Shown here piece after piece: positions 9,586-21,829 of a stretch of 64,000 bases of DNA. The position numbers were made by a program, and so were the translations under genes. The notes beneath the pieces are model-generated. The model searched no databases and was not told the origin of the DNA. It saw only the letters and a list, made by a program, of their open reading frames with translations. Positions within the stretch are counted from its first letter, which is position 1, and every line of letters begins with the position of its first letter. This DNA is from Mesorhizobium sp. 113-3-3 (GTDB lineage: Bacteria; Pseudomonadota; Alphaproteobacteria; Rhizobiales; Rhizobiaceae): positions 1,674,001-1,738,000 of the forward strand of contig NZ_AP023243.1 of NCBI RefSeq assembly GCF_016756495.1. Direction: 5' to 3'.

Positions 9586-10260
9586 TCAGGAGCCGTTGGT
9601 GGCGATCCAGATGACATGGCGCGCGCCGCGCTTGCCGTTGGCGCGCGTGTTGACCTCCTCGACACCGAAGCCTGCCTGCTTCAGCCGCCGCGCGAAGCCG
9701 CTGTCCGGGCCTTGCGACCACACCGCAAGCACGCCGCCCGGCTTGAGGGCGGTGCGCGAGGCGTTGAGGCCGGCGAGGCTATAGAGCGCGTCATTGCCCT
9801 TGTGGACGATGCCTTCGGGGCCATTGTCGACATCGAGCAGGATGGCATCCCAGGCCGCGGACCCGGACCGGATCAATTGCCCGACATCGGTCTCCTCTAT
9901 GGTGACGCGGGGATCGTCGAGACAACCGCCAAACACGTCCGCCATCGGGCCGCGTGCCCAGGCCACGACCGCCGGCACCAGCTCCGCGACAACGATGCCG
10001 GCATCCTCGTCGAGTTCGGCCAAGGCGGCACGCAGAGTGAACCCCATGCCAAGGCCGCCGATGAGGATCCTCGGCTGGCGATGGTCCGCAATCCTTTGAC
10101 AGGACAGTTTCGCCAGCGCCTGCTCGGAGCCGCTGAGGCGGCTGTTCATCAGCTCATTGGTGCCGAGCATGATCGAGAATTCGCTGCCGCGCCGCTTGAG
10201 CCGAAGCTCCTGGGCACCATCCCCGGTCTTTGCCGAATCGAGCTGGACCCAGGGTATCAC
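9586..10260 (-). CDS. Spermidine synthase-like protein (Rossmann methyltransferase fold)
   Basis: 224 residues. The nucleotide-binding loop is ILIGGLGMGFTLRAAL (about residues 65-80), followed by the acidic strand end VVAELVPAV and ILLDVDNGPEG, where DVDNGP replaces the DxxDP-type catalytic region of true spermidine synthases. Fused or stand-alone spermidine-synthase-like proteins of this type are widespread, and many have no proven polyamine activity. It starts 3 bp after the transporter gene stop on the same strand and probably shares its transcript. Confidence 0.75.
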   Translation of the reverse strand: MIPWVQLDSAKTGDGAQELRLKRRGSEFSIMLGTNELMNSRLSGSEQALAKLSCQRIADHRQPRILIGGLGMGFTLRAALAELDEDAGIVVAELVPAVVAWARGPMADVFGGCLDDPRVTIEETDVGQLIRSGSAAWDAILLDVDNGPEGIVHKGNDALYSLAGLNASRTALKPGGVLAVWSQGPDSGFARRLKQAGFGVEEVNTRANGKRGARHVIWIATNGS

Positions 10261-10263
10261 GGT

Positions 10264-10944
10264 CTAGGCCGCGACTGCCGGCTGGCTCCAGCGCGCGGCG
10301 AGCAGCCGGTAGGGGATGAGCGCGACCACGGCGATGATCAGCTTCACCGAAAGGTCGCCGAGCGCCCAGGAAACCCAGCGCATGGCCTCGACGTGGAAGA
10401 CGCCCATCAGCGGCGCCGTCTCCAGCGCAAAGCTGTCGTTCGGGCCAGCGAAGGCGAAAGCGGCCGAGAAAGCGACGGTGAAGAAGACCATGGTGTCGAA
10501 GACCGACCCGACCAGCGTCCCGACGATCGGAGCCCGCCACCAGCTCTGACGGCGCAGCCGGTTGAACACGGTGACGTCGAGCAGTTGCGCGGACAGGAAG
10601 GCGGCACCTGAAGCGGCGGCGATGCGCACCAGCCGGTCGGCCGCGGTCTCGAATTCGATCAGGCCATGGCGGAACAGGAAGGGCGGGACGAGGATCGAGC
10701 AGACCACCGCCGTCATGAAGCCGACAAAGACGATCCGGCGCGCCACGGAAGGCCCGTAGCGGCGGTTGGCAAGGTCGGTGACCAGGAAGGAGAACGGATA
10801 GGTGAAAGCGCCCCAGGTGAGCAGGTCGGCCAGCGACAGGCCGCCGATCTGACCCTGCATCGGGAACTGCACGAGAATGTTCGATGCCACGACGACAAGC
10901 GCCATGGCGGCCACGAAGGGCAGATATCGCGAGAAGGAAGTCAT
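10264..10944 (-). CDS. yhhQ: Queuosine-precursor (VUT/YhhQ) transporter
   Basis: 226 residues with about six membrane helices (for example FVAAMALVVVASNILVQF, IVFVGFMTAVVCSILVPPFLF, MVFFTVAFSAAFAFAG). Family features include LTWGAFTYPFSFLVTDLANRRYG near the N-terminus and GTLVGSVFDTMVFF. COG1738 proteins import preQ0/preQ1 for queuosine tRNA modification. The assignment is supported by a preQ1-I-like pseudoknot immediately upstream. The AGGA ribosome site at 10955-10952 lies 7 bases before the ATG and partly inside the riboswitch P1 stem. Confidence 0.88.
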   Translation of the reverse strand: MTSFSRYLPFVAAMALVVVASNILVQFPMQGQIGGLSLADLLTWGAFTYPFSFLVTDLANRRYGPSVARRIVFVGFMTAVVCSILVPPFLFRHGLIEFETAADRLVRIAAASGAAFLSAQLLDVTVFNRLRRQSWWRAPIVGTLVGSVFDTMVFFTVAFSAAFAFAGPNDSFALETAPLMGVFHVEAMRWVSWALGDLSVKLIIAVVALIPYRLLAARWSQPAVAA

Positions 10945-10970
10945 TTTTTTATCCTGGGTAATGGAACCAG
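10942..10970 (-). promoter_or_regulatory. Candidate preQ1-I riboswitch overlapping the yhhQ start codon
   Basis: On the minus strand P1 is CUGG (10970-10967) with CCAG (10957-10954). Loop 1 begins UUC, as in the GGUUC of known preQ1-I aptamers, and C10958 precedes the 3' strand of P1 where the ligand-pairing cytosine is expected. An A6 tract follows (10950-10945). P2 can form between CAU (10963-10961) and the AUG start codon (10944-10942). The AGGA Shine-Dalgarno overlaps the P1 3' strand, so ligand binding should block translation. COG1738 transporter genes are known targets of this riboswitch class. The loop is shorter than in the best studied examples. Confidence 0.65.
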
Positions 10971-10978
10971 CGGAGCAT

Positions 10979-10995
10979 CATGCCCGTCGGGCATG
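10979..10995. repeat. 17-bp hyphenated palindrome upstream of the preQ1 element
   Basis: CATGCCCG (10979-10986), T, CGGGCATG (10988-10995) form a perfect palindrome with a one-base centre. In the yhhQ transcript it would fold as a 7-bp hairpin with a GAC loop, 8 bases 5' of the aptamer. It could be an operator or a hairpin that insulates the riboswitch. Confidence 0.5.
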
Positions 10996-20659: not shown

Positions 20660-21829
20660 TCATGCGCTCAGCCCTCTCGCCCGCGCCGCCGACCCGATGA
20701 AGCCGTTGATGGCGGCGAACAGTTCCGGCTCGTCGAGCAGGAAGGCATCGTGGCCGCGATCGGTCTCGATCTCGACGAAGGACACCGAGGCGCCGGCGGC
20801 ATTGAGCGCATGCACGATGGAGCGGCTTTCTTCCGTCGGAAACAGCCAGTCCGATGTGAACGACACCAGGCAGAAGCGGGTCTTGGTTCCGGCAAAGGCG
20901 TCCGCCAGCCTGCCGCCATGGTCGGCGGCAATGTCGAAATAGTCCATGGACCGCGTCATATAGAGATAGGAATTGGCGTCGAAGCGGTCGACGAAGGTCA
21001 TGCCCTGGTGGCGCAGATAGCTTTCGATCTGGAAGTCGGCGTCGAAGCCGAACGTCAGGTGGTCGCGATCCTGCAGATTGCGACCGAATTTGCGGTGCAG
21101 GGCGGCTTCCGAGAGATAGGTGATGTGGGCAGCCATGCGCGCCACCGCCAGGCCCTTTTCCGGGCGCTTGCCATGCTCGAAATATTTGCCGCCATGCCAG
21201 TCCGGATCGGCCATGACCGCCTGCCTGCCGACTTCGTGGAACGCAATGTTCTGCGAGGAATGGCGCGCGCCGGTGGCGATCGGCAGCGCCGAAAAGACAC
21301 GCTCGGGATAGCTCGACGCCCATTCCAGCACCTGCATGCCGCCCATCGAGCCGCCGAGCACGCAGAACAGTTTCTCGATGCCGAAATGGTCGATCAGCAT
21401 CTGCTGCGCGCGAACCATGTCACGGATGGTGATGACCGGCAGGTCGAGCCCATAGGGCTTGCCGGTGGAGGGGTTGGTCGAGGCCGGGCCGGTGGAGCCC
21501 AGGCAGCCGCCGATGACGTTGGAGCAGATGACGAAGAAACGGTTGGTGTCGATGATCCTGCCGGGGCCGATCAGCACTTCCCACCAGCCCGGCTTGCCGG
21601 TCACCGGATTGGTGTTGGCGACATGCTGGTCGCCGGTCAGCGCGTGGCAGACCAGGATGGCATTGGAGCGGGCATCGTTCAGCGTGCCATAGGTCTGGTA
21701 GGCGATCTGGAACGGCGACAACAGCGTGCCGGCGTCGAGCTTGAGCGGCTTGTCCGCCCCGAAGCGCAACACCGGGCTCGACGGCTGGTCGGCCTCGTTG
21801 TTGGTCTTTCCTGCGCGCAGAGTGGCCAT
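20660..21829 (-). CDS. metX: Homoserine O-acyltransferase MetX
   Basis: 389 residues. An alpha/beta-hydrolase fold with the nucleophile in LGGSMGGMQ, the Asp in FTSDWLFP and the His in DRGHDAFLL. The family motifs [15 protein letters not shown] and [27 protein letters not shown] are split across the N-terminal half. It transfers an acyl group (acetyl or succinyl) to homoserine, the first committed step of methionine synthesis. The start follows a 5' leader with a SAM-II aptamer and a terminator. Confidence 0.95.

Follow-up and report, generated by a model that had tools for sequence, protein, structure and literature searches.

A candidate preQ1-I riboswitch that would use the yhhQ start codon as a pseudoknot strand in Mesorhizobium and its relatives

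The yhhQ gene of Mesorhizobium sp. 113-3-3 begins inside a 29-base element that resembles the preQ1-I type III aptamer of E. coli and in which the initiator codon itself would form one strand of the pseudoknot helix P2. We favour, at a probability of roughly 85%, the reading that this element controls yhhQ as a translational OFF riboswitch and that its aptamer is a type III variant with a start-codon P2. The reading is supported by comparison of sequences, namely by the likeness to type III, by the covariation of positions 7 and 30 across related leaders and by seven leaders in which the AUG of the element is kept out of frame with yhhQ. These same three points uphold what an earlier note, made from this DNA alone, had proposed: a preQ1-I-like aptamer with the start codon as P2. 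As to the identity of the ligand, the three-dimensional contacts, the direction of control and the effect in vivo, we infer them by analogy with the E. coli type III riboswitch.

The DNA analysed is a stretch of 64,000 nucleotides, hereafter the window. Its minus strand reads, from 10970 to 10942, CUGGUUCCAUUACCCAGGAUAAAAAAAUG, and the final AUG of these 29 bases is the start of yhhQ (226 codons, 10264-10944, minus strand). The product is a queuosine precursor transporter, as originally assigned, matching TIGR00697 at 105.7 bits (cut-off 50.95) and also PF02592. We delimit the element by its sequence, by its conservation and by a scan of the window, in which a degenerate pattern finds a single match at up to three mismatches and none in 100 shuffles. 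Counting from position 1 (10970) to position 29 (10942), all on the minus strand, the 5′ strand of P1 is CUGG (positions 1-4, 10967-10970) and its partner is CCAG (positions 14-17, 10954-10957), giving the four pairs C1-G17, U2-A16, G3-C15 and G4-C14. The nine-base loop that they enclose, UUC CAU U A C, comprises L1 (UUC, positions 5-7, 10964-10966; UGC or UGG in other lineages), the 5′ strand of P2 (CAU, positions 8-10, 10961-10963) and L2 with C13 (UAC, positions 11-13, 10958-10960). Downstream of P1, the A-rich L3, GAUAAAAAA (positions 18-26, 10945-10953), leads to the AUG (positions 27-29, 10942-10944), which is complementary to CAU and would be the 3′ strand of P2. L3 is part of the conserved stretch; the roles given to its A26 and to C13 are assigned by homology with the E. 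coli riboswitch as described in passages of PMC10622847. A Shine-Dalgarno-like AGGA (positions 16-19, 10952-10955), 7 nt before the AUG, has its first two bases in P1. Just past the element, the first base of codon 2 (position 30, 10941) is A in the window and makes no standard pair with position 7 in this UUC-type copy; in lineages with UGC or UGG, position 7 can pair with it, to judge from their letters. Everything that the earlier note had read in this place, that is GGUUC, ACCC, a P1 of four pairs, an A-rich tail, a CAU complementary to the start codon and an AGGA partly in P1, is found in the window at exactly 10942-10970, and the observation is real.

The element was sought in 180 leaders, 80 of them named loci and 100 from the wider family, chosen among the listed matches. 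All 80 named loci have it in front of yhhQ; they belong to Mesorhizobium, apart from one Pseudaminobacter and one record labelled just as a bacterium. The motif with a strict P1 occurs in 176 of the 180 leaders and, once P1 is loosened, in 177; the other three (L211, L212 and L217) fail the motif even so and contain no clear element. Since the search demanded both CAU and AUG, the constancy of these two triplets in the motif leaders is by construction. L1 is of the UUC (UU) type in 132 of the 177 leaders and of the UG type in 45, and AGG is present in 169. In the 91 of 100 family leaders with an element of identical length (CAU in 91/91, as the search required), mean information is 1.77 bits per column when the element is taken with the single base 5′ of it; the 5′ flank reaches 0.15 and the coding sequence past the first base of codon 2 reaches 0.37, the alignment being anchored on the motif itself. 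At the AC before the 3′ strand of P1, the first base is A in 77, C in 10 and T in 4 of these leaders and the second is C in all 91.

A wider survey of 199 family genomes found a near-exact pattern in 168, with at most one match per genome and none for the reversed control pattern. The pattern was one A short and normal copies use both of the allowed mismatches, making the count one of near-exact copies; that the match lies at yhhQ was confirmed for the leaders read rather than for each of the 168 genomes. Eleven of the 31 non-matching genomes have no yhhQ match, and the leaders of the other 20, read individually, divide into ten that retain the element, L2 or L3 being slightly lengthened by an insertion, and ten in which it is lost or degenerate. 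The element is thus present in 178 of the 188 yhhQ-bearing genomes of the sample. It is also found in Sinorhizobium meliloti (pSymB), Rhizobium sp. NLR16a, Shinella sp. PSBB067 and Sinorhizobium sp. K101; none was found in the yhhQ leader of Pseudorhodobacter turbinis.

The yhhQ leader of E. coli K-12, which reads UUGGGUUCCCUCACCCCAAUGGUUAAUCAAAAAGGU and is matched by similar leaders in Enterobacter, Proteus and Aeromonas, is a preQ1-I type III riboswitch of solved structure (passages of PMC10622847). The core of the window element, GGUUCCAUUACCC, shares 11 of 13 bases with that of E. coli, GGUUCCCUCACCC; the form most often seen in the family, which has C in L2, shares 12 of 13. The two align one to one, GGUUC-CAU-U-ACC with GGUUC-CCU-C-ACC and AAUG with AAGG, and they differ at one variable base of L2 and at the middle pair of P2, which is changed on both sides from C-G to A-U. 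Both loops have nine bases, UUCCAUUAC in the window and UUCCCUCAC in E. coli; the earlier note's remark that the loop is shorter than in studied aptamers therefore does not hold. In the passages of PMC10622847, P2 of E. coli consists of U11-A28, C10-G29 and C9-G30; the contact bases are U6, C14 and A27, with C14 as the specificity base and A27 touching preQ1; A28 lies in the pocket ceiling together with C8 and U11; and U7 holds the ligand-contacting A. By homology, C13 of the window would be the equivalent of C14, A12 that of A13 and A26 that of A27. The A of the start codon would occupy the position of A28, over the ligand, and the A preceding it that of A27.

With type III the element thus has in common the predicted H-type pseudoknot geometry, the nine-base loop UUC-NNN-N-AC, a C as putative specificity base, an A-rich L3 and the presumed control of yhhQ. 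UU follows the 5′ strand of P1 in the window (as UUC) and in 132 of 177 leaders, AC precedes the 3′ strand in the window, and the loop is short and pyrimidine-rich like the nine-base loop of E. coli. The two differ at P2, whose 3′ strand in type III is the Shine-Dalgarno sequence AAGG (passages of PMC11625349 and PMC10622847), whereas the window and the 177 motif leaders have AAUG there. Furthermore, type III is found almost only in gammaproteobacteria, while the present element, although it too stands before yhhQ, is alphaproteobacterial; its P1 has 4 pairs, or 5 in eight leaders, where type III has 5 to 6; its AUG directly follows the A-tract; and its L1 may be UG, codon 2 then supplying a fourth pair of P2. 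Since it lacks the P2 sequence by which type III is defined, we class the element as a preQ1-I variant similar to type III rather than as a type III riboswitch. Types I and II (RF00522) share the A-rich tail, the H-type pseudoknot and a specificity C before the 3′ strand of P1 (passages of PMC11625349), but the present element has a shorter loop than they do and the start codon in P2, and its copy in the window has no RF00522 match. A further parallel is offered by direct-occlusion riboswitches (SAM-II and others), whose expression platform lies within the aptamer pseudoknot, as it would here; these typically embed the ribosome-binding site rather than the start codon (passage of PMC10907184).

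Among alternatives, the one that survives best keeps the fold and the start-codon P2 and changes the ligand, which would be another compound of the queuosine pathway (preQ0 or queuine), or else preQ1 in the UUC types only and a different compound in the UG types. We consider it unlikely. It can point to the cargo of YhhQ proteins, which in different bacteria is preQ0, preQ1 or queuine (passages of PMC10622847 and PMC11570991), and to the UG types, 45 of the 177 leaders, in which the base equivalent to U7 of E. coli is G and the pocket, for that reason, cannot match that of E. coli. Against it, the UUC types, including the window, keep the letters of the preQ1 contacts U6, C14 and A27, and the E. 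coli arrangement favours preQ1 over preQ0 by about 138-fold, according to a passage of PMC10622847.

Intact copies of the element tend to occur together with queF, a point for the start-codon riboswitch. The genome from which the window comes has matches to both QueF and QueA. In a set of 26 genomes, a strong QueF match (at least 88 bits) was present in 9 of 13 with an intact element and in 2 of 13 with a lost or degenerate one (Fisher p 0.015, for a non-random set, mostly chosen because the pattern had failed, and with kinship ignored). Weak QueF matches (21 to 28 bits), which we took as related FolE, were left out of this count; one in G306 and one in G565 exceed Pfam's cut-off. Counting against that riboswitch, two genomes (G650 and G619) have queF and no element, and four (G577, G664, G657 and G718) have the element and no QueF match, the latter being also a point in favour of another ligand. 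In the small-genome genus g19, perhaps Bartonella, four examined genomes of 1.4 to 1.6 Mb have neither a QueA match nor the element, and a member of 2.4 Mb has both. Queuosine genes were lost early in the Bartonellaceae, as stated in passages of PMC11570991.

A search with the preQ1-I model, which the earlier note had suggested, gave no match in the window or in the control: RF00522 (gathering score 39 bits) matched nothing in the window, either at the gathering cut-off or at E ≤10, nor did it match, at E ≤10, the proven leader of E. coli K-12 yhhQ (L264 5115-5255, 141 bases). The negative result for the window was set aside because the control leader was missed as well, and Rfam-based annotation may, by the same token, miss type III copies. 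Over 41 genomes, RF00522 gave no match above the cut-off and weak matches at E ≤10 in 21; one of these, in the relative G013 (C71:10632-10671, 14.4 bits, E 6.66) falls just upstream of yhhQ (9965-10630) on the same strand.

Outside the family, no element was found in 27 leaders from the order's other families (about 75 genomes there have a TIGR00697 match, and these 27 are the ones with listed loci) or in 40 leaders from the class (drawn from 104 genomes with a match). The scan used recovers the element in E. coli and in 164 of the 180 own leaders, with a null rate below 0.001 per shuffled leader; the position of some outside-family leaders was set from a partial match or is close to a contig end. 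A looser scan had brought up one class leader (L266) with a P2 of UUU in an AT-rich context, 114 bases before the match, which was taken as chance and was absent in the later scan. Pattern searches of 397 genomes of the order yielded clear matches only in the own family: elsewhere the two-mismatch pattern matched 13 times as against 12 for the reversed control, and the strict pattern twice, at unrelated places, as against once. The pattern was not found in the viral collection. The present distribution may go back to transfer from gammaproteobacteria, to loss in the lineages between or to convergence.

P1 reads CUGG/CCAG in 176 of the 180 scanned leaders, and its four pairs are invariant among the strict-P1 leaders. 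One genome (G538) has CCGG/CCGG, a compensatory change from U-A to C-G, before an extended yhhQ frame, and one of the 80 named loci (L091) has a C-A mismatch. As P1 hardly varies, the case for it comes mostly from its likeness to type III. Minimum free energy does not fall below that of shuffled sequences (z 0.01 to 0.23 at three lengths), as calculated with a program that cannot model the pseudoknot. This unremarkable folding energy and the near invariance of the P1 bases, such as a protein site might show, would both suit a site for an RNA- or DNA-binding repressor lying over the start codon, the likeness to preQ1-I being then a coincidence. Such a site is very improbable in our opinion, given that 11 of 13 core bases are shared with a proven aptamer before the same gene, that positions 7 and 30 covary on both sides of the proposed helix and that the AUG and its partner are kept out of frame in seven leaders.

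The covariation, which the earlier note had proposed to look for next to CAU and AUG, links position 7, the base before CAU, to position 30, the first base of codon 2, through C-G and G-C combinations. Position 30 is G in 15 of 15 UGC leaders and C in 30 of 30 UGG leaders; in the 131 UUC leaders it is A in 98, C in 20, T in 13 and never G. In the UG types, therefore, P2 appears to gain one pair into codon 2. The recurrence of these changes was followed on a tree of 77 YhhQ proteins (75 with the element), whose rows were picked to span the three L1 types (60 fetched genes, the window, five named loci and 11 loci from the non-matching genomes). On the best tree there are 7 changes of the UGC label, of which well-supported branches force at least 4, and 3 changes of the UGG label, of which they force at least 2. 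Position 30 agrees with the L1 type in 75 of 75 rows. A null in which position 30 changes along the tree at a matched rate, independently of L1, never reached this figure in 20,000 runs per frequency setting, its maximum being 64 when the observed base frequencies were used and 63 when all four were set equal. Simulation was used because the sign test had too few independent pairs for significance (4 of 4 for UGC, two pairs for UGG). The two-sided covariation supports the P2 helix next to CAU:AUG. Covariation within an H-type pseudoknot, a feature of the RF00522 class, is accordingly seen at P2; for P1 it comes down to the one compensatory change, which is weak. Our guess, from the analogy with C8 of E. 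coli, is that the UUC types need C7 free for the pocket ceiling.

In 170 of the 177 motif leaders the AUG of the element is in frame with yhhQ. The seven in which it is not are all of the UGC type, all keep CCAU and AUGG, and all are without AGG in P1. Their start likely lies 4 to 16 bases downstream of the element's AUG and, in most of them, the UGGA in P2 would probably act as Shine-Dalgarno sequence; an exception is L205, where the start is only 4 bases on, so that UGGA is unsuited to the task. AGG is missing from P1 in eight leaders because a fifth P1 pair, G-C, removes the Shine-Dalgarno sequence (8/8 such leaders). The eighth of these, L206, has its AUG in frame and, 15 bases on, a GUG that is in frame too. 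The leaders without AGG fall in two clades of the YhhQ tree. Both the codon taken to be used in the out-of-frame leaders and the direction of the change are our interpretation of the leaders as they read, and copies with an altered AUG would show only among the three leaders that fail the AUG-requiring motif. The persistence of the AUG and its partner out of frame favours pairing over initiation alone. That the element is a mere translation-initiation signal under strong selection, the upstream complementarity being incidental, is the least probable explanation of all, for although the spacing of AGGA, A-tract and AUG suits initiation, CUGGU, CAU and CCC are conserved too, 12-26 bases upstream of the AUG, the arrangement was not found before yhhQ in 67 outside-family leaders, and 7 leaders have an AUG that does not share the reading frame of yhhQ.

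For the start-codon riboswitch, then, we envisage the following course of events. Without preQ1, P1 (CUGG/CCAG) would be just a hairpin of 4 bp, easily opened by the ribosome. Binding of preQ1 would have C13 read the guanine-like face of the ligand and A26 its other edge; the loop CAU would pair with the AUG and close an H-type pseudoknot, so that the initiator codon would become P2, with its A over the ligand, while half of the AGGA would be sequestered in P1. Initiation of the importer would stop when the precursor is plentiful. The earlier note proposed that ligand binding would hide both initiation signals at once: AGGA does lie half in P1, but the joint hiding is something we can only infer, because just half of the Shine-Dalgarno sequence is inside P1 and P1 may form without ligand. 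The UG-type lineages would add a fourth P2 pair with codon 2. In the two clades without AGG, the start would lie further downstream and P2 probably holds the UGGA Shine-Dalgarno sequence. The evidence tips us, by a small measure, towards a more specific view in which, throughout the family, the initiator codon is a working part of the sensor: the A before the AUG would read the ligand, the AUG would close both the pocket and P2, and codon 2 would be constrained in the UG types, whose pocket may be reshaped. The P2 strand would, on the same view, have switched between start codon and Shine-Dalgarno sequence at least twice, in step with the loss of the Shine-Dalgarno sequence in P1.

A literature search covering titles, abstract openings and passages, with the paper defining type III (reportedly McCown, 2014) outside its scope, found no start-codon P2 and no paper joining queuosine, riboswitch and Mesorhizobium; alphaproteobacterial copies may nevertheless have been sighted earlier. 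The term "start codon" is absent from the main text of PMC11625349 and PMC10622847. In types I to III and in the direct-occlusion group, part or all of the Shine-Dalgarno sequence is placed in P2, and in the passages on type III and direct occlusion control works via that sequence (passages of PMC11625349, PMC10622847 and PMC10907184). A start-codon P2 would make the control of initiation less dependent on the Shine-Dalgarno sequence, in an element about the size of the smallest natural aptamer reported, that of E. coli type III. The covariation of a coding base, the first of codon 2, with a riboswitch loop would be a rare case, and the leaders would form a natural series, with the same pseudoknot strand acting in some as start codon and in others as Shine-Dalgarno sequence. 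If the reading is correct, a switch for queuosine precursors that Rfam does not report in the window stands before yhhQ in most of the sampled family genomes and extends to named Mesorhizobium, Sinorhizobium, Rhizobium and Shinella.

As to the surroundings of the gene, no promoter-like (sigma-70-like) or terminator-like site was found between 10900 and 11500. Directly upstream of yhhQ and in the same direction lies rpmB, for ribosomal protein L28 (11124-11420, minus strand). The same neighbour was detected by a crude C-terminus test in 66 of 100 family leaders and appears in the annotation of S. meliloti and Rhizobium. A perfect 8-bp inverted repeat, CATGCCCG/CGGGCATG, occupies 10979-10995, 8 bases upstream of P1; other leaders seem, by eye, to carry different hairpins near the same place, and in some family leaders an apparent terminator, recognised by reading, stops a few bases 5′ of P1. 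Three bases past yhhQ begins an open reading frame (9586-10260, minus strand) with weak similarity to spermidine synthases, under curated cut-offs, which possibly forms one operon with yhhQ. Elsewhere in the window, the Rfam scan identified a SAM-II riboswitch (SAM_alpha, RF00521; 21937-22014, minus strand, 79.1 bits) upstream of an open reading frame (20660-21829, minus strand) whose translation reads as a probable homoserine O-acetyltransferase.
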